This document shows positions 1,231-7,088 of a DNA stretch of 7,088 bases, in pieces; within the stretch, counting starts at the first letter, position 1; each line of letters starts with the position of its first letter. The notes under the pieces are model-generated. The model saw nothing but the letters and a program-made list of their open reading frames with translations. It was not told the DNA's origin and made no database searches. Both the position numbers and the translations under genes were made by a program. The stretch lies in contig CALBVI010000396.1 in assembly GCA_937969395.1 (NCBI GenBank), positions 1 to 7,088 of the forward strand, written 5' to 3'. This DNA is from an uncultured Spongiibacteraceae bacterium. GTDB lineage: Bacteria; Pseudomonadota; Gammaproteobacteria; Pseudomonadales; Dasaniaceae.

Positions 1231-1578
1231 ATGCAGTCGCACATTAAGGCCGCCGTTTATTCAGGGCTTGTTTTTCCCGGCGCGGGTTATTTTTTTCTAA
1301 AAAAAGTAAAGCGCGCAGTTATCTTTGTTTTATTAACATTGCTGAGCTTAATAGTCGTTTTATATGATGCGATATATAAAGCACAGATTATTGCTCAGAA
1401 GATTGTTAATGGTGAAATTCCGTTTGATCTGACCATTATTCGACAGCAAATTTCTGCTACTGCAGGTGTATTAGATGCTTCTGTGGTTGTCGCTCTGTAT
1501 TCAGTGATGGCCGTGTTGTGGCTGGTAAGTGTCGTCGATTGTTATCGGCTTGGAAAATTAAAAGATAAATTAAGTTAA
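1231..1578 (+). CDS. Small membrane protein of unknown function, 115 aa
   Basis: I do not recognise this protein. It has a short amphipathic or hydrophobic start with a GLVFPGAGY motif (residues 12-20) and a basic patch KKVKR (24-28). A first membrane segment follows at about 29-47 and a second at about 84-103, with a roughly 35-residue polar loop between them. The tail is short and basic. The Pro-Gly-Gly motif just before a basic patch and a membrane helix recalls small TM2-like or DUF proteins, but that is only a resemblance. A good ribosome site, AAGGA at 1219-1223, lies 7 bases before the ATG and supports the start. The gap to pgi is 25 bases with no hairpin visible, so cotranscription with pgi is plausible. 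The gene probably encodes a real inner-membrane protein. No function can be assigned from sequence. Confidence 0.75.
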   Translation: MQSHIKAAVYSGLVFPGAGYFFLKKVKRAVIFVLLTLLSLIVVLYDAIYKAQIIAQKIVNGEIPFDLTIIRQQISATAGVLDASVVVALYSVMAVLWLVSVVDCYRLGKLKDKLS

Positions 1579-1616
1579 TAAGTTACTATAAAATAAATAG
1601 TATTTGCGTATTTAAT

Positions 1617-1645
1617 TTCTTAATGTGTTGGTATCACTCTATAAT
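1617..1645 (+). promoter_or_regulatory. Candidate sigma-70 promoter for the DUF898-M48 unit
   Basis: A perfect TATAAT (1640-1645) lies 62 bases before the DUF898 start codon. A weak -35 match, TTCTTA (1617-1622), sits 17 bases upstream of it. The whole 129-base gap is very AT-rich, so chance matches are likely and the -35 box is poor. The gap length and the clear gene boundary on its left favour a promoter somewhere in this stretch. Confidence 0.4.
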
Positions 1646-1707
1646 TTACTGCGATTAAGTATAAATAATAAATCAATCTTACATTGTAATTACAAAGGAA
1701 TGTTTCT

Positions 1708-2721
1708 ATGGATAGCTCTAGTCAAATAGTTGAACCTACCGTAACACATAAAAAAGCTGGTTTTGAATTCCGCGGCGATGGCATGGAATACTTTAAAATT
1801 TGGATTGTTAATGTGCTGCTAACGATTCTTACATTAGGTATTTATTCTGCTTGGGCGACTGTAAGAAACAATCGCTACTTTTATTCCAATCTTTATCTAG
1901 ATAATACAAATTTTAGCTACCTAGCAGAGCCTTTGACTATCTTAAAAGGGCGGGTGATAGCGGTGGTAGTCTTTGTAGCTTTCAGTATGATTTCTCAATA
2001 TGATCCTGCTTACGGTATCGTTCTTACTGTAATTTTATTGATTGCTATTCCTTACTTTGTTAATCAGTCCTTGGCTTTTCAGCGTAGAATGTCAGCCTAT
2101 AATAATATTCAATTTCGATTTAAAGCCTCTTATTTTGAAGCATTTATGGTGTTTTATGTTTGGCCCTTATTAGGTGTATTAACCCTAGGTATTTTATACC
2201 CCTTAGCAATGTTGAAGATGCATCAGTATGTCGTAAAGAATAGTGCTTACGGGACAACCAGCTTTGACTTTAATGCAACTTACGGTGATTACGGCATAAT
2301 CTTCTTGATTTTATTAGGTGTAGGTTTAGTTTTTGGTTCGATTTATATGGCTATTGTTGCCTTTATACCTGGTGCGGCATTTATCACGCCATTTATTATG
2401 GGTTTGGTTTATTTTGGCTTGTATTTATATTTTGTAACTCAAATTAATAATTTATTCTTCCATAGTCTAAGTCTCAAAGATCACAGATTTAATGCCTCGG
2501 TAAGTGCTGTCGGTCTAGGTAAGGTAGTTTTGATTAATTTGTTATTGATTTTAGTAACGTTAGGACTTTATTTACCGGCAGCCAAAGTTCGAATGGCTAA
2601 GTATTTTTGTGATTGTATCTCGATGAAAATTGCTGGGTCACTGGATGACTTCACTGCCGCTGAGAAAGAGAATGTCAGCGCCTTGGGTGAAGAGTTTGGG
2701 CAAGTTTTTGACTTTTCATAA
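1708..2721 (+). CDS. DUF898/YjgN-family inner-membrane protein
   Basis: This is a polytopic inner-membrane protein of the YjgN (DUF898) family, whose biochemical role is unknown. The diagnostic N-terminal block is present: FEFRGDGMEYFKIWIVN, then LTLGIYSAWATVRNNRYFYSN, and later ILKGR (residues 19 to about 82). The protein is 337 residues long; E. coli YjgN is about 398. It contains three diverged internal copies of a motif ending a membrane helix: TLGIYSAWA (42-50), TLGILYPLA (159-167) and TLGLYLPAA (284-292). Each is followed by a basic residue cluster and an aromatic-rich stretch. A further hydrophobic pair lies at about 195-245. The ribosome site AAAGGA (1694-1699) lies 8 bases before the ATG, which supports this start. 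The M48 peptidase gene follows after 38 bases, so the two are probably cotranscribed. Family membership is firm, function is not. Confidence 0.9.
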   Translation: MDSSSQIVEPTVTHKKAGFEFRGDGMEYFKIWIVNVLLTILTLGIYSAWATVRNNRYFYSNLYLDNTNFSYLAEPLTILKGRVIAVVVFVAFSMISQYDPAYGIVLTVILLIAIPYFVNQSLAFQRRMSAYNNIQFRFKASYFEAFMVFYVWPLLGVLTLGILYPLAMLKMHQYVVKNSAYGTTSFDFNATYGDYGIIFLILLGVGLVFGSIYMAIVAFIPGAAFITPFIMGLVYFGLYLYFVTQINNLFFHSLSLKDHRFNASVSAVGLGKVVLINLLLILVTLGLYLPAAKVRMAKYFCDCISMKIAGSLDDFTAAEKENVSALGEEFGQVFDFS

Positions 2722-2759
2722 CTGCTTGCTAAATCGTTTAGTTACTTAAGACTTATAAG

Positions 2760-3872
2760 ATGATTAATGGACTCTATCTTGACGGTAAATCTTCTAAACG
2801 CCATAGCGCAAGTTTAGAAGTTAACTTTAGTGAGCCTGTACCTGTGACTATTGTGGTCCATTATGATGATGGGCAGCAAAAAAAAATCGCATTAACACTT
2901 GCCGAGATGAAAGTGCAGTCGCGTATTGGTAGTACACCGAGAGAAATAATGTTTGGTGATGGCAAGTTGTTTGTCACCGAAAGCCATCAGGCGGTCGATG
3001 ATCTTGTCGCAATGTTGGGAGGGAGCAAGTCTCTCGGCATTATGCACAAATTAGAGAGTAGTCTGTCGATGGTGTTGGCCGCCATTGTTATTACTTTATT
3101 AGTGCTTTGGTTTACGATTGATGTTGGCATACCAACATCTGCAAAATATATCGCCTATAACTTGCCGTCCTTTACCTCAAAGCATTTTGGTAGCTCCTTA
3201 GATCTACTCGATAAGACAATGTTTGATCCTAGCGAGTTAGACGAAAGTCGCCAACAACATATACAAAAGTTAGTCGCGCCGTATTTAAAACAATACAAAA
3301 ACTTAAATGCTCAGCTTAAATTTCGTTCAAGTGATAGCGCTAATGCTTTTGCACTACCTGATGGGAATATTGTTTTTACTGATGATATTGTCAATATGGT
3401 AGAAACTGATCAGCAACTATTGGCAATATTGTTTCATGAGATTGGTCATCTAGAGCACAGACATATAATGCGTCGAGCTTTGCAAGGCTCAATGGTAACG
3501 GTGTTAGTTGTTTTTATTACTGGAGATATTGATAATCTTGATTTAATGACGGGTTTGCCTACTTTGTTATTAGATCTAAATTATTCAAAGGAGTTTGAAT
3601 TAGAGGCAGATTATTTTTCTCTAGAATTGCTTCACAGTAATAACTTTGATCTTGATAGCTTCGCCACTGTTATGCAGCGCCTTGATGACTACTATAAGGA
3701 GGGGGGGCAAGGTGATGTGGTCGCTGAAACTGATATTGTGGACAATGGCGAAGATACAGATAAACATATTAATGAGACCATAAAGACTGTCGTTGGTTTT
3801 TTATCAAGCCATCCGGCCACATATGATCGAATTGCTTTGGTCGAAGAGTTTAAAAAGAATAACCCACGATAA
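2760..3872 (+). CDS. Membrane-anchored M48-family zinc metallopeptidase
   Basis: This is a zinc-dependent endopeptidase of the M48 family (HtpX/Oma1/BepA relatives), which typically degrades or processes damaged membrane or envelope proteins. Residues 1 to about 85 form a soluble N-terminal domain starting MINGLYLDGKSS, a type often seen on this M48 subgroup. One membrane segment lies at about 103-121. The catalytic part follows, with NAFALPDG (195-202) and the zinc motif HEIGH (His226, Glu227, His230) in LFHEIGHLEHRH. The third ligand is probably Glu280 in EFELEAD. A hydrophobic stretch at about 245-258 lies between the two motifs, as in other M48 enzymes. Lysines before the membrane segment suggest a cytoplasmic N-terminus and a periplasmic catalytic domain; this is inferred. 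The ATG has no good ribosome site and an in-frame stop lies at 2739-2741, so translation may depend on the upstream DUF898 gene, 38 bases away. The substrate is unknown. Confidence 0.9.
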   Translation: MINGLYLDGKSSKRHSASLEVNFSEPVPVTIVVHYDDGQQKKIALTLAEMKVQSRIGSTPREIMFGDGKLFVTESHQAVDDLVAMLGGSKSLGIMHKLESSLSMVLAAIVITLLVLWFTIDVGIPTSAKYIAYNLPSFTSKHFGSSLDLLDKTMFDPSELDESRQQHIQKLVAPYLKQYKNLNAQLKFRSSDSANAFALPDGNIVFTDDIVNMVETDQQLLAILFHEIGHLEHRHIMRRALQGSMVTVLVVFITGDIDNLDLMTGLPTLLLDLNYSKEFELEADYFSLELLHSNNFDLDSFATVMQRLDDYYKEGGQGDVVAETDIVDNGEDTDKHINETIKTVVGFLSSHPATYDRIALVEEFKKNNPR

Positions 3873-4050: not shown

Positions 4051-4074
4051 TCCATATTTTCTGCATATTTCATC
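4051..4074 (+). promoter_or_regulatory. Shared upstream element, copy 1
   Basis: TCCATATTTTCTGCATA (4051-4067) matches 6899-6915 at 16 of 17 bases, and 21 of 24 when extended to 4074. It lies about 50 bases before the pseudo-receiver gene start. An AT-rich stretch with ATTTAAAT (4081-4088) follows, as it also does downstream of copy 2. It could be a regulator-binding site or a conserved promoter core left by duplication. The coding strand and the exact -35/-10 boxes cannot be settled by eye. Confidence 0.5.
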
Positions 4075-4103
4075 ACTAATATTTAAATACCATGCTTGTA
4101 TAT

Positions 4104-4108
4104 AGAGG
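4104..4108 (+). promoter_or_regulatory. Ribosome binding site deciding the 4119 start
   Basis: AGAGG lies 10 bases before ATG 4119 and 7 bases before an in-frame TTG at 4116. Either codon could be used, and they differ by one residue. ATG is preferred because it is the stronger start codon and gives the usual MKNILFI receiver opening. Confidence 0.5.
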
Positions 4109-4118
4109 TGTTTAATTG

Positions 4119-4811
4119 ATGAAGAATATCTTGTTTATCAATGGCAAAGATAATTGTTCAAGATCGTTATTTGTTCATTTACATGAAGAGGGCTACCAAA
4201 TAGATTTTGCTAGCAGCTTTATGGATGTTATGCGTATGCTCGATTCTCAATGTGTCGATTTGATTTTTTTGAACGAAGATTTTCCTGAGATATGCAGTGA
4301 AACTACTTTTCGTGTTATTCGAAAATATTCAGATGCCGCTATTGTTGTTTCCATTAGTACGCCTAGCGAGTTAGATCGAATGATATGGATAGATATCGGC
4401 GTTGATGAAGTGGTTTGTAAAAATAGCTCAGTACAATCTATCGGTCAGTGTATAGCCAATGTACTGCAAAAAAAAATACTGAGTGATGATGAACCTAATA
4501 ACAGATTAAAGCCTCTGACAATGTCGTCTGAAGAAACGGAAACATCAAAAGTTGATGATCTGCCTTTGTCGCCCGAAGAATTACTGCTATTGAAATTACT
4601 TTCAAAAAAACCGATACAAACGCATAGCTACGGAGTGCTTACTAGCTATATGAATGTAAATGGATTTCAATATTCCGATAGTGTTGTCGATGAAAATATA
4701 GGTAATTTACGAAAAAAATTGTCTCTAATTTCATCGGTAGCAGATCCAATCAAAGAGTCATTTTCTGATCAAGGTGCTGGTTATAGATTGCATTTGGATA
4801 ATGCTATTTAA
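4119..4811 (+). CDS. Atypical OmpR-type response regulator with a pseudo-receiver domain
   Basis: The architecture is that of an OmpR/PhoB regulator: receiver at about 1-105, a polar acidic linker at about 110-147, and a C-terminal winged helix at about 150-227. It aligns without gaps to the intact regulator at 6100 over the receiver. The key residues are changed: the acidic pair Glu11-Asp12 is Asn8-Gly9, phospho-acceptor Asp55 is Asn52, switch Thr82 is Ile79, and only the Lys survives (Lys101, followed by Asn instead of Pro). Normal Mg-dependent phosphorylation is therefore not expected. The winged helix keeps its hydrophobic frame, ending VDENIGNLRKKL (190-201) and GAGYRLHL, but the recognition helix differs from SDRTVDSHVKNLRRKL by losing an Arg, a His and a Lys. 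The frame is uninterrupted and the ribosome site is good, so this looks like an expressed, diverged gene and not a pseudogene. It might be a constitutive regulator, a decoy or a dimer partner. It lies 98 bases before the kinase gene. Confidence 0.85.
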   Translation: MKNILFINGKDNCSRSLFVHLHEEGYQIDFASSFMDVMRMLDSQCVDLIFLNEDFPEICSETTFRVIRKYSDAAIVVSISTPSELDRMIWIDIGVDEVVCKNSSVQSIGQCIANVLQKKILSDDEPNNRLKPLTMSSEETETSKVDDLPLSPEELLLLKLLSKKPIQTHSYGVLTSYMNVNGFQYSDSVVDENIGNLRKKLSLISSVADPIKESFSDQGAGYRLHLDNAI

Positions 4812-4815
4812 GCCT

Positions 4816-4842
4816 ATGCGCGCTTCCAAAAGTGAGGCGTAT
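4816..4842 (+). other. Stem-loop just after the pseudo-receiver gene
   Basis: Bases 4816-4825 can pair with 4834-4842: nine pairs, two of them G-U wobbles, with one bulged G (4822) and an 8-base loop CCAAAAGT. It begins 4 bases after the stop codon of the pseudo-receiver gene. No T-tract follows, so it is not a classical intrinsic terminator. It could act as a 3' stabiliser or a partial transcription barrier before the kinase gene. Confidence 0.35.
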
Positions 4843-4909
4843 CTCGTATTTAATCTCCGGTTACACTGGCTAGCATTGTTATTGCTTGGGGCTATTGTTA
4901 AGTAAAATT

Positions 4910-6100
4910 ATGGATAAACCCATTATAGATTACCGCGTTAAAACTATTTTTTGGATCACGGTTACCGCGCTTGTTTTTGTACCCGCTTTTGCCATTAACA
5001 ATTTTATTGCCGGACGCACGACGATGGGCTGGATGTCTGTATTAGTGGTTTCGGTGCTTGTGTTGCAAGCTTGGACAATTTATCGCGGTCGTTTTTATCG
5101 TCTTCTAACGACTGCGGTTTTAGTTCCTGTCATTGTTTTGTTCGTTATGGCAGCATTTTATTACCAGCAGATTATTGGTGCGTTATGGTGTTATCCAGCG
5201 GTGCTGGTATTTTATTTCATTCTGCCAAGGCGCAAAGCTATTTATGCCAGTATCTGTCTTTTACTCGTGGCTGTTCCTAGCGCTTGGTTCGCTTTGGAGC
5301 ATTCATTAGCTACTCGCGTTGCCGTGACTCTGTTGGCGGTGACTTTTTTTTCCGCTATTTTTGTATTAATTATTGAGCAACAACAGCAAGAATTAGAAGA
5401 AAAAGAAGCGCAGCGAAGAGATAGTATGGCCAGTGCATCACATGAACTGCGCACACCTTTAACAACAACATTGGCTCAGGTGGAGGCAATGCGGGATGGA
5501 ATTCGGCCATTAGATGAATTTCAATTGGCGACGGTATCACGTTCCATTGAACACATGGCTAGTCTTGTCGATGATCTTTATTTGCTGTCACTGGCTGATG
5601 TCAGGCAGTTAACAGTCAACAAGCAAACGGTTGCTATTGTAGATACGGTGGAAGATGCATTGGCTGCAGTAAAAACTAAGCTTGCGGACCATTCACTACA
5701 GATAGCTAACAACGCTATTCCTAACGTGTCCCTATCTGCGGATCCACACCGTTTACGACAGATTATTGATAATTTATTAGAGAATTGTTGTCGCTATACC
5801 AGTTCAGGTGGCAGTATACATCTTTCGGTTGAGCGCGAGCAGCATATGTTGAAGTTCACGGTGGCGGATAGTGGTCCTGGTGTTAGTGATAAGCAATTAA
5901 AAAAATTGTTTGAACGGTTTTATCGAACAGACCAATCGCGCTCTCGTCATTTAGGGGGAGCGGGTTTGGGCTTGTCGTTGATTAAAGCACTTTCGGAGGC
6001 TCATGGTGGGCATGTAAAAGCGGCGCATGCTAAGCAGGGTGGATTGGCGATATCAGTATTCTTCCCTTTAACTAATGATCACAAAATAGGACGGCTGTAA
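4910..6100 (+). CDS. Six-TM sensor histidine kinase, BaeS-like catalytic core
   Basis: This membrane sensor kinase autophosphorylates on His and should pass the phosphate to the regulator encoded by the next gene. About six membrane helices (residues 12-30, 41-57, 66-84, 88-105, 110-127, 135-156) are joined by short loops with no sizeable periplasmic domain. A Gln/Glu-rich helix (157-170) leads into the dimerisation and phospho-acceptor region SASHELRTPL, with His178. The ATPase domain has the N box LLENCCRY (Asn292), G1 DSGPG (320-324), an F box LFERFYR and G2 GGAGLGLSLI (349-358). All catalytic motifs are intact. The kinase core resembles BaeS (VDDLYLLSLAD, LLENCCRYTSSGG), but the sensor half does not. 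An in-frame TTG at 4886 would add 8 residues. ATG 4910 is chosen because the TTG has no ribosome site, although the site at 4910 is also weak. The stop codon overlaps the regulator start as TAATG. Confidence 0.93.
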   Translation: MDKPIIDYRVKTIFWITVTALVFVPAFAINNFIAGRTTMGWMSVLVVSVLVLQAWTIYRGRFYRLLTTAVLVPVIVLFVMAAFYYQQIIGALWCYPAVLVFYFILPRRKAIYASICLLLVAVPSAWFALEHSLATRVAVTLLAVTFFSAIFVLIIEQQQQELEEKEAQRRDSMASASHELRTPLTTTLAQVEAMRDGIRPLDEFQLATVSRSIEHMASLVDDLYLLSLADVRQLTVNKQTVAIVDTVEDALAAVKTKLADHSLQIANNAIPNVSLSADPHRLRQIIDNLLENCCRYTSSGGSIHLSVEREQHMLKFTVADSGPGVSDKQLKKLFERFYRTDQSRSRHLGGAGLGLSLIKALSEAHGGHVKAAHAKQGGLAISVFFPLTNDHKIGRL

Positions 6101-6804
6101 TGAGTACTCCGCCTCGTGTGTTAGTTGTTGAAGATGAAATAATCATCTCCGAAATATTACGTGATTATTTGATTGCGGATGGTTTTGCTGCTGATGTGAT
6201 TAACACCGGTGAGGGCGTTGTCGATTTTATTCGCGATGAACACCCAGACTTGGTGTTATTGGATTTGATGTTGCCAGAAGTTGACGGTGTGCGTATCTGT
6301 CGCGAAGTTAGGGCGTTTTCTGATGTGCCAATTATAATGGTGACGGCGAAGATTGACGAAGCTGATTGCTTGATAGGCCTGGGTGTTGGTGCTGACGATT
6401 ATGTGTGTAAACCAGTTAAACCGAAAGAAGTTGTCGCACGAGTTAAGGCGATATTGCGCCGAACAGCCAAACTTGATTTTCATGCGCAAACACCTCAATC
6501 AGCGTTACAAATTGATGATTCAGAATGTCGGGCGCGTTGGCATCAACAGATCATTGACTTAACTCCGATTGAATTTCGTTTGCTAGCGTTGTTTGCTAAA
6601 AAAATTGACAGAGTCTATTCGCGAGATACATTGATGAGTGCTATCTACCTTGATGGTCGCTATGTGAGTGATCGCACGGTTGATTCTCATGTAAAAAATC
6701 TACGGCGTAAGCTAATAGCAGTTACTCAGCTTGATAACCCTATTCGTCCAGTTTATGGCATGGGTTATAAATTAGAATTAAATGAAAAACTGAATGAAAA
6801 ATAA
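6100..6804 (+). CDS. BaeR-like OmpR/PhoB-family response regulator
   Basis: This DNA-binding response regulator is the likely partner of the kinase encoded just upstream. The receiver domain (about 1-120) is complete: acidic residues Glu11, Asp12 and Glu13, phospho-acceptor Asp55 in LLDLMLPEVDG, switch Thr82 in IIMVTAK, and Lys104 in YVCKP. The C-terminal winged helix starts at LTPIEFRLLALF. It contains the recognition helix DRTVDSHVKNLRRKL and ends in the wing motif YGMGYKLEL. The overall sequence, especially GADDYVCKP, KEVVARVKAILRR and the recognition helix, is close to BaeR, the envelope-stress regulator of enterobacteria. That supports the family assignment but does not prove the same regulon. 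The ribosome site TAGGA (6087-6091) is inside the end of the kinase gene, 8 bases before the ATG. The one-base TAATG overlap implies cotranscription and coupled translation. Confidence 0.94.
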   Translation: MSTPPRVLVVEDEIIISEILRDYLIADGFAADVINTGEGVVDFIRDEHPDLVLLDLMLPEVDGVRICREVRAFSDVPIIMVTAKIDEADCLIGLGVGADDYVCKPVKPKEVVARVKAILRRTAKLDFHAQTPQSALQIDDSECRARWHQQIIDLTPIEFRLLALFAKKIDRVYSRDTLMSAIYLDGRYVSDRTVDSHVKNLRRKLIAVTQLDNPIRPVYGMGYKLELNEKLNEK

Positions 6805-6898: not shown

Positions 6899-6922
6899 TC
6901 CATCTTTTCTGCATAATTAATC
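6899..6922 (+). promoter_or_regulatory. Shared upstream element, copy 2
   Basis: TCCATCTTTTCTGCATA (6899-6915) is 16 of 17 identical to 4051-4067. A possible -10 box CATAAT follows at 6925-6930, and ATTTAAAT occurs at 6943-6950. The element is about 95 bases before the last regulator start and about 50 bases before the leader ORF. It probably forms part of, or overlaps, the promoter of that regulator. Confidence 0.5.
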
Positions 6923-6966
6923 GTCATAATTTGGATAGTCCTATTTAAATTATGGAGTTGCAAGCA

Positions 6967-7014
6967 ATGCCCTTATCTATCTTCTTTTTCAGTCAGTGTT
7001 TATCTCAACAATGA
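6967..7014 (+). CDS. Possible 15-codon leader peptide coupled to the next regulator
   Basis: A 15-residue ORF (MPLSIFFFSQCLSQQ) starts at 6967. GGAG (6954-6957) lies 9 bases before its ATG, a good ribosome site. An alternative in-frame ATG at 6952 would make it 20 residues, but then GGAG would overlap its own start codon. Its TGA stop (7012-7014) overlaps the start of the following regulator as ATGA. That regulator has no ribosome site of its own, so the ORF may serve to deliver ribosomes to it. It could also be a chance ORF. No homology is recognised. Confidence 0.4.
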   Translation: MPLSIFFFSQCLSQQ

Positions 7015-7088
7015 GTGCTCAGCCTTATATTATTATTGTCGATGATGAGGTTGTTGTCTCTGAAATCATTCGAGATTATCTTATTGCC
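7011..7088 (+). CDS. Response regulator, N-terminal 26 residues, truncated by window edge
   Basis: An open frame begins MSAQPYIIIVDDEVVVSEII and continues RDYLIA to the window end. It matches the start of the BaeR-like regulator at 6100 at 15 of 26 positions without gaps, and most of the other positions are conservative changes. The acidic pair Asp11-Asp12 and Glu13, which bind Mg in active receivers, are present, so unlike the protein at 4119 this copy starts as a canonical receiver. The phospho-acceptor and output domain lie outside the window. No purine-rich ribosome site precedes the ATG; the start codon overlaps the stop of a short leader ORF. Together with copy 2 of the shared element, this suggests a separate transcription unit. 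Confidence 0.85.
   Translation, partial: MSAQPYIIIVDDEVVVSEIIRDYLIA

Follow-up and report, generated by a model that had tools for sequence, protein, structure and literature searches.

The window, by which we mean the whole stretch of DNA that was analysed, is a complete contig of 7088 bases (C396) from a genome of 2.49 Mb that is divided into 495 contigs and is 64% complete. On the forward strand it contains, in this order, the end of pgi, the genes for a hydrophobic protein of 115 residues, a DUF898 protein and an M48 peptidase, the gene at 4119, a histidine kinase gene, the gene for a BaeR-like regulator and the start of the gene for a third regulator. The 4119 gene (4119-4811, forward strand) encodes an OmpR-type regulator of 230 residues with a pseudo-receiver, and the coordinates given to it in a first-pass annotation, with an ATG at 4119 and a stop codon ending at 4811, were correct. 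An alternative TTG start is located at 4116 and, from a reading of the sequence, a Shine-Dalgarno-like AGAGGTG (4104-4110, forward strand) is located 8 nt upstream of the ATG.

The next two genes on the forward strand are its neighbours, a sensor histidine kinase (4910-6100) and an intact BaeR-like response regulator (6100-6804), the start of which shares one base with the kinase stop codon. The kinase has a BaeS-like core, an intact H-box with the histidine at 5441-5443 and a hydrophobic N-terminus that is probably a multi-pass membrane segment. The third regulator, which is also BaeR-like (7011-7088, forward strand) and on which the first-pass finding for 4119-4811 was silent, is truncated by the contig end after its first 26 residues; the acidic pair is intact and 15 of the 26 residues are identical to those of the 6100 protein.

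A consensus scan of the forward strand in the 98 bases from the 4119 gene to the kinase gene yielded no promoter-like or terminator-like site. This gap is filled by a frame of 29 codons (4816-4905; MRASKSEAYLVFNLRLHWLALLLLGAIVK), which contains one hydrophobic stretch, is separated by four bases from the pseudo-receiver gene and the kinase gene alike, and possibly encodes a small membrane protein. When the gap was shuffled 5000 times, 22 of the shuffles produced a frame of this kind, and 74 did so if any start was permitted.

The genes for the small protein, the DUF898 protein and the M48 peptidase form a block (1231-3872) whose order is repeated in a related genome (G009, locus L052); the pgi, kinase and regulator genes of the window had no match in the 15-kb L052 stretch. 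The very start of another contig from the window's own genome (L044, G000:C53, 2-559) encodes the C-terminal half of a second kinase, which is 44% identical to that in the window. This fragment lies on a separate contig and may follow the third regulator, in which case the two systems would form a cluster.

The shared upstream repeat and the kinase

A repeat of 39 nt is present upstream of both the 4119 gene and the third regulator gene. The first copy (4051-4089, forward strand) is 74% identical to the second (6899-6937, forward strand), and the copies end 29 bases upstream of the ATG at 4119 and 73 bases upstream of the ATG of the third regulator, respectively. The repeat is the top match between the two upstream regions and its score was attained in 0 of 400 Markov resamples, while the regions upstream of the DUF898 gene and the kinase gene scored 8 to 10 against either repeat region, as compared to a resample mean of 10.5. 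The second copy contains the published BaeR core TCTNCANAA as an exact match at 6905 (4 of 200 shuffles), and the first copy matches 8 of its 9 bases at 4057, which is at chance level (130 of 200 shuffles). The 18-base BaeR consensus of E. coli fits poorly, one copy having 5 mismatches to it and the other no fewer than 6. In a comparison of 11 regions that lie upstream of related kinase genes or of the genes downstream of these, one in G004 contains the exact core (10 of 200 shuffles) and one in G003 a weak match (14 of 200), the rest being unremarkable. The repeat is probably a shared operator, and we infer that the 6100 protein binds to it. Two other counts were discarded. Matches to a 19-base pattern were not taken as support since the pattern was derived from its own two matches, the resampling being the proper control, and a search of the whole genome for the repeat core, in which one mismatch was allowed, was uninformative (160 matches versus 111 in the reversed control).

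The kinase has seven relatives at 53-65% identity, and the close relatives P0009-P0016 are database proteins without gene context. A search of genome contigs with an alignment of eight kinases, including that in the window, identified 12 loci, the best three of which (L083-L085) matched the N-terminal part only. Genes were listed around L083-L086, L088 and L091, and a regulator search in the frames of all 12 loci recovered four regulator-like frames (L088, L091, L093 and L094), none of which matched the 4119 protein at 1e-4. With a limit of E 0.01, the N-terminal part was matched in 33 of the 293 genomes of the order, and with a limit of 1e-70 the kinase profile was matched in 2 of the 369 genomes of the class, the window's own genome being counted in both cases; the second match to the profile covered the kinase core only. 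This N-terminus (4910-5404) contains no Pfam domain above cut-off, is shared with the diguanylate cyclases P0017 and P0018 (47% and 41%) and, more weakly, with the frames in those 33 genomes, among them a second frame of the same genome on contig C384. It is possibly an undescribed sensory module that serves two output types.

We also inspected the surroundings of six related kinase-regulator pairs. No second regulator of the 4119 kind was found near any of these, with the contig of G001 ending about 60 bases upstream of the kinase gene. Five of the pairs (L045, L047, L048, L049 and L050) are followed by a short gene, the product of which we take to resemble a Spy/CpxP-type protein, while L046 is followed by none.

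The receiver and DNA-binding domains of the 4119 protein

The first-pass annotation described the phosphorylation site of the 4119 protein as systematically erased, on the basis of a gapless alignment with the 6100 protein. This alignment is sound: at an offset of 3 residues, 27 of 123 receiver positions are identical, as compared to 13 for the runner-up among 81 offsets, and the spacings of 44, 27 and 49 residues between the key positions are the same in both proteins. The substitutions were likewise recovered (codons on the forward strand). The acidic pair E11/D12 of the 6100 protein corresponds to N8/G9 in the 4119 protein (4140-4145), the phospho-aspartate D55 to N52 (4272-4274), the conserved T82 to I79 (4353-4355) and K104 to K101 (4419-4421), which is the sole active-site residue left. 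Two additional losses had escaped the annotation, namely the replacement of the switch residue Tyr101 by Val98 (4410-4412) and of Pro105 by Asn102. In alignment with the 4119 protein, residues E/D, D, D, T/S, Y, K and P were all present in 26 of 26 other regulators, a set that consists of 25 regulators from the same and related genomes and the 6100 protein.

The view that this is a pseudo-receiver stands, and no substitute acid is aligned to any of the active-site positions, Glu53 and Asp54 coming after Asn52. In published usage a receiver counts as a pseudo-receiver if one or more of its five catalytic residues (DD, D, T/S, K) are missing, and as aspartate-less if the phospho-aspartate is missing (PMC12632262, PMC4395418); the 4119 protein belongs to both classes, with N8, G9, N52 and I79 at sites where the residues are conserved in 26 of 26 comparators. 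It is predicted not to be phosphorylatable in the usual way. The aspartate-less class comprises about 2% of OmpR-type receiver proteins, and asparagine is the commonest substitution after glutamate (16%) in such receivers (PMC4395418). The match to the Pfam receiver family PF00072 was 23.5 bits, below the curated cut-off of 30.2, whereas the winged-helix family PF00486 (Trans_reg_C) was matched at residues 148-223 with 28 bits against a cut-off of 26.2, and by virtue of this domain downstream of the receiver the protein is an OmpR/PhoB-type regulator.

AlphaFold models of the 4119 and 6100 proteins, inferred from five-row alignments, were weak (mean pLDDT 67.0 and 68.8), and no further alignment rows were found in viral contigs. 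A Foldseek search with the 4119 model ranked BaeR first, with TM-scores below 0.4 from this poor model. Helix 4 was unformed in the 4119 model, and was dropped as evidence because the model of the intact 6100 protein also lacked it.

The best curated family for the 4119 protein is BaeR, with 71 bits over residues 3-225 (NCBIfam), followed by CreB with 63 bits, and the nearest solved structure by sequence is likewise BaeR (4b09; 54 bits, next 37.6). A cysteine before the lysine, present in all ten BaeR-like rows of our 27-row set, is retained in the 4119 protein. The set omits L011, three loci that represent the same genes as others (L013, L015 and L039, equivalent to L031, L035 and L003) and three matches from the same genome without a locus. 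In a tree of the 27 rows, the end branch of the 4119 protein was 8.05 changes per site, which is saturated, so that its position could not be placed. Its probable BaeR ancestry thus rests on the profile and sequence scores and on the cysteine. The scores fell below the BaeR and BaeS equivalog cut-offs for the 4119 protein (71 of 380 bits), the 6100 protein (282 of 380) and the kinase (232 of 500).

To compare individual elements, we used the ten BaeR-like rows as the consensus and 11 of the 15 other rows as comparators, leaving out L003, L037, L041 and L042. The recognition helix of the 4119 protein (SDSVVDENIGNLRKKL; 4674-4721, forward strand, by alignment) had an identity to this consensus of 0.43, versus 0.44 in the 11 ordinary comparators. 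The suggestion that the protein acts through protein contacts and not DNA binding is weak in view of these values. It had been prompted by the smaller number of basic residues, which is correct in relation to the 6100 protein, whose Arg, Thr, His and Lys in this helix are gone while one Glu is gained, but is not exceptional among regulators, since the DNA-binding domain is at least as acidic in 2 of 26 of these and the recognition helix is more acidic in 1 of 26. We accordingly did not count the domain's low charge as evidence. The alignment also identified an insertion of three residues (SDQ) in the wing (4764-4772, forward strand), and with this and the substitutions in the recognition helix the DNA specificity has probably changed.

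In searches that depend on shared short exact words, which a fast-evolving orthologue could escape, no orthologue of the 4119 protein was found in 57 related genomes (its own included), in 5.77 billion proteins or in the genome contig database. Eleven of the 57 genomes contained matches at 1e-10, and the best match in each of the 10 others than its own was an ordinary regulator; nine of these are represented in the 27-row set, either by that locus or by another locus for the same gene, and the tenth, L011, was checked apart. Among the 5.77 billion proteins there were 386 candidates, the best match other than itself being at 24-26% identity, and the receiver part used alone gave 49 candidates, of which only the protein itself matched at E up to 10. 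Since no orthologue was found, yet the kinase has its seven relatives at more than half identical residues, the 4119 protein appears to be lineage-specific or too fast-evolving for a conserved partner.

The dimer face and the role of the 4119 protein

For the analysis of the dimer face, we selected the residues named for KdpE and PhoB (PMC4773095, PMC4888885). The two halves of this face have fared differently in the 4119 protein. In the alpha4-beta5 half (Arg87-Glu97; 4377-4409, forward strand) residue class is retained at 6 of 6 positions (Arg87, Met88, Ile91, Asp92, Asp96 and Glu97), as compared to 1 of 6 in the alpha5 half (Ser107-Lys118; 4437-4472, forward strand). The pattern concerns 12 positions of a single protein and is one of residue class, not identity; equal unevenness was obtained in 217 of 100,000 random draws from 74 class-conserved receiver columns, 46 of which are retained in the 4119 protein. 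Over the whole alpha4-beta5 stretch, similarity to the BaeR-like consensus was 0.79 (comparators 0.82) and identity 0.37 (comparators 0.60), while similarity over the whole alpha5 element was 0.50 (comparators 0.84). The 6100 protein retains 4 of 6 positions in the helix-4/strand-5 half and 6 of 6 in the helix-5 half, and its two gaps, Cys90 and Gly95, are at the sites of Arg87 and Asp92 in the 4119 protein. Loss at both of these alpha4 sites was seen in 1 of 25 other regulators (L040).

The first-pass annotation had proposed a decoy, a heterodimer partner or a constitutive modulator of the same regulon. Of these, the half-retained dimer face favours a heterodimer partner, with a constitutive modulator as a further possible role. 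Our preferred, still tentative reading is that the 4119 protein and the 6100 regulator are under shared control and that the former serves the latter as a partner subunit that needs no phosphorylation. This reading builds on the residue losses, the intact frame, the gene order, the shared repeat and the fact that the two halves of the dimer face are eroded unequally. The kinase and the 6100 regulator look like a working pair, with the H-box and the receiver residues intact. The kinase would phosphorylate the 6100 regulator, which in turn would increase the amounts of all members of the set, including the pseudo-receiver, by binding to the shared repeat. The latter would be neither phosphorylated nor docked by the kinase, and would pair with the 6100 protein, its own retained helix-4/strand-5 face being set against the intact helix-5 face of its partner. 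The resulting heterodimer would carry one ordinary and one altered DNA-binding domain, and would either damp the targets of the homodimer or read composite sites in the manner of BldM-WhiI. A stricter version, in which the two proteins split one dimer face so as to form an obligate one-sided heterodimer, with the dead receiver as a fixed docking plate for the living one, is rather unlikely. Several points weigh against the partner reading, namely the failure to find an orthologue, the saturated branch, the small number of positions behind the dimer-face pattern, the double alpha4 loss in L040 and the poor fit of the repeat to the E. coli BaeR consensus, and we know of no published pseudo-receiver that pairs via half a face.

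The best-surviving alternative, to which we give a smaller though still appreciable chance, is a stand-alone factor similar to CmrT, which would form phosphorylation-independent homodimers on DNA sites of its own, with the two-component system steering it only by expression level. In CmrRST the same parts are located in one operon, CmrR binds upstream and CmrT homodimerizes (PMC12548384, PMC12632262). The DNA-binding core and recognition helix of the 4119 protein are within the normal range, and the shared upstream repeat is compatible with control by level. However, the canonical alpha5 homodimer contacts are gone (E107, R111, R113 and two small or hydrophobic positions; KdpE numbering), Asn52 is not phosphomimetic, and the Thr and Tyr that are present in CmrT have been lost. 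A partner subunit is favoured over such a factor because a heterodimer would complete one side of the interface, whereas a homodimer of the pseudo-receiver would complete little of it.

The 4119 gene could also be a duplicated regulator gene in early decay, still without stop codon or frameshift, as might be suspected from the failure to find an orthologue, the very long branch and the absence of such a second regulator near the six related pairs. To quantify this, we simulated neutral drift with the 6100 sequence as the start and free drift throughout. At 26% identity to the start, the simulated genes had acquired 9.9 in-frame stops on average, and none of 300 runs was stop-free; at 70% identity 2 of 300 were. 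Under these premises a neutral gene at the present divergence would be expected to have accumulated about 10 stops, while a recent onset of relaxation after a long constrained divergence is compatible with the result. The codon-usage score of the gene was 0.106 per codon, within the range of 0.086-0.160 for four neighbours and above that of 500 shuffles (at most -0.148). Core hydrophobic positions were defined as those with a hydrophobic residue in 90% or more of the other regulators; the receiver retains 26 of its 32 and the DNA-binding domain 14 of its 16, and four of the six exceptions in the receiver (56, 57, 81 and 106) are at most 2 residues from an active-site position. The codon usage, the Shine-Dalgarno-like site, the domain core and the upstream repeat all being retained, we consider early decay improbable, and as far as one sequence can tell 4119-4811 is a gene and not debris.

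More improbable is a receiver that senses a signal other than phosphorylation, such as thiol oxidation, in the manner of RitR. Asparagine at the phospho-site is the substitution seen in RitR (PMC4395418), and the 4119 protein contains five cysteines (13, 45, 59, 100 and 111). Against this, the 6100 protein contains four cysteines, the one before the lysine is common among the BaeR-like rows, and none in the 4119 protein is near position 128, the site of the RitR cysteine according to PDB titles. The Foldseek match to a streptococcal redox regulator was based on a poor model.

The potential for docking on the kinase was examined at three positions of the beta5-alpha5 loop and eight of helix 1, the latter chosen with reference to work on OmpR and presumed to be docking positions. 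The 4119 and 6100 proteins differ at 8 of 8 helix-1 and 3 of 3 loop positions in this comparison, while positions 17, 20, 24 and 28, in or after helix 1 and outside the compared set, are identical. Identity of helix 1 to the BaeR-like consensus was 0.19, versus a mean of 0.33 in 11 comparators, a divergent helix 1 being also typical of regulators that serve other kinases. Pairing specificity is mainly determined by one face of helix 1 and the beta5-alpha5 loop, and our helix-1 set is wider than the published one (PMC2991266). Docking of the 4119 protein on this kinase is unlikely. A role as decoy or sink, in which it would bind the kinase next to it in competition with the 6100 regulator, as has been proposed for pseudo-receivers (PMC12632262), would agree with the location of the gene before an intact kinase (H-box in 8 of 8 aligned homologues) and with the four identical positions, and is nevertheless the least probable one, since all eleven positions compared for docking differ from the 6100 protein while the third regulator retains 15 of 26 identities over a stretch that ends in helix 1.

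Relationship to known systems

The closest precedent is CmrRST in Clostridioides difficile, in which, as at the 4119 locus, a kinase, an intact and an aspartate-less OmpR-type regulator are encoded side by side (PMC12548384). In CmrRST the intact regulator autoregulates the operon and heterodimers were recovered in pull-downs (PMC12548384); the CmrRST literature weighs the same two models, a partner subunit and a stand-alone factor (PMC12548384, PMC12632262). CmrT has a Glu at the site and retains T/S, Lys and Tyr, while the 4119 protein has Asn52, Ile79 and Val98, with Lys101 alone left, and unlike CmrT it has lost both acids and half of its dimer face is eroded. The pseudo-receiver gene is also the first in order at the 4119 locus, unlike in CmrRST, and cmrRST has a c-di-GMP riboswitch, as compared to 0 Rfam matches at the gathering threshold in the window.

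In BldM-WhiI of Streptomyces, an atypical regulator acts as an auxiliary subunit in a heterodimer on a composite site (PMC4125116); the two genes are described as not co-transcribed (PMC12548384), and BldM as having no known partner kinase (PMC12632262). RitR of streptococci is an OmpR-type regulator with Asn at the phospho-site, as in the 4119 protein (PMC4395418). Unlike the 4119 protein, it retains the Tyr as well as one acid of the triad, and its receiver has been described as a monomer in which helix 4 is kinked. The BaeSR envelope-stress system provided the top curated family for both regulators and the kinase, from which the kinase differs in its N-terminus, a hydrophobic module that diguanylate cyclases carry as well. 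A literature text search for BaeR in combination with a pseudo-receiver had as its sole match a review on circadian clock proteins.

The kind of protein encoded at 4119 is thus already known; what sets this one apart is how far the erasure has gone, the splitting of the dimer face and the BaeSR-like setting. A 2025 review calls the on-off switching of bacterial pseudo-receivers a mystery (PMC12632262), and CmrRST, with a pseudo-receiver within a kinase-regulator operon, is only beginning to be understood. The 4119 locus adds a further example, which has been eroded separately and lies in a BaeSR-like setting, together with a prediction, at the level of residues, of which half of the dimer face pairs with which protein. 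If true, complementary half-interfaces of a regulator and its pseudo-receiver twin would represent a new mode of wiring for a two-component system.
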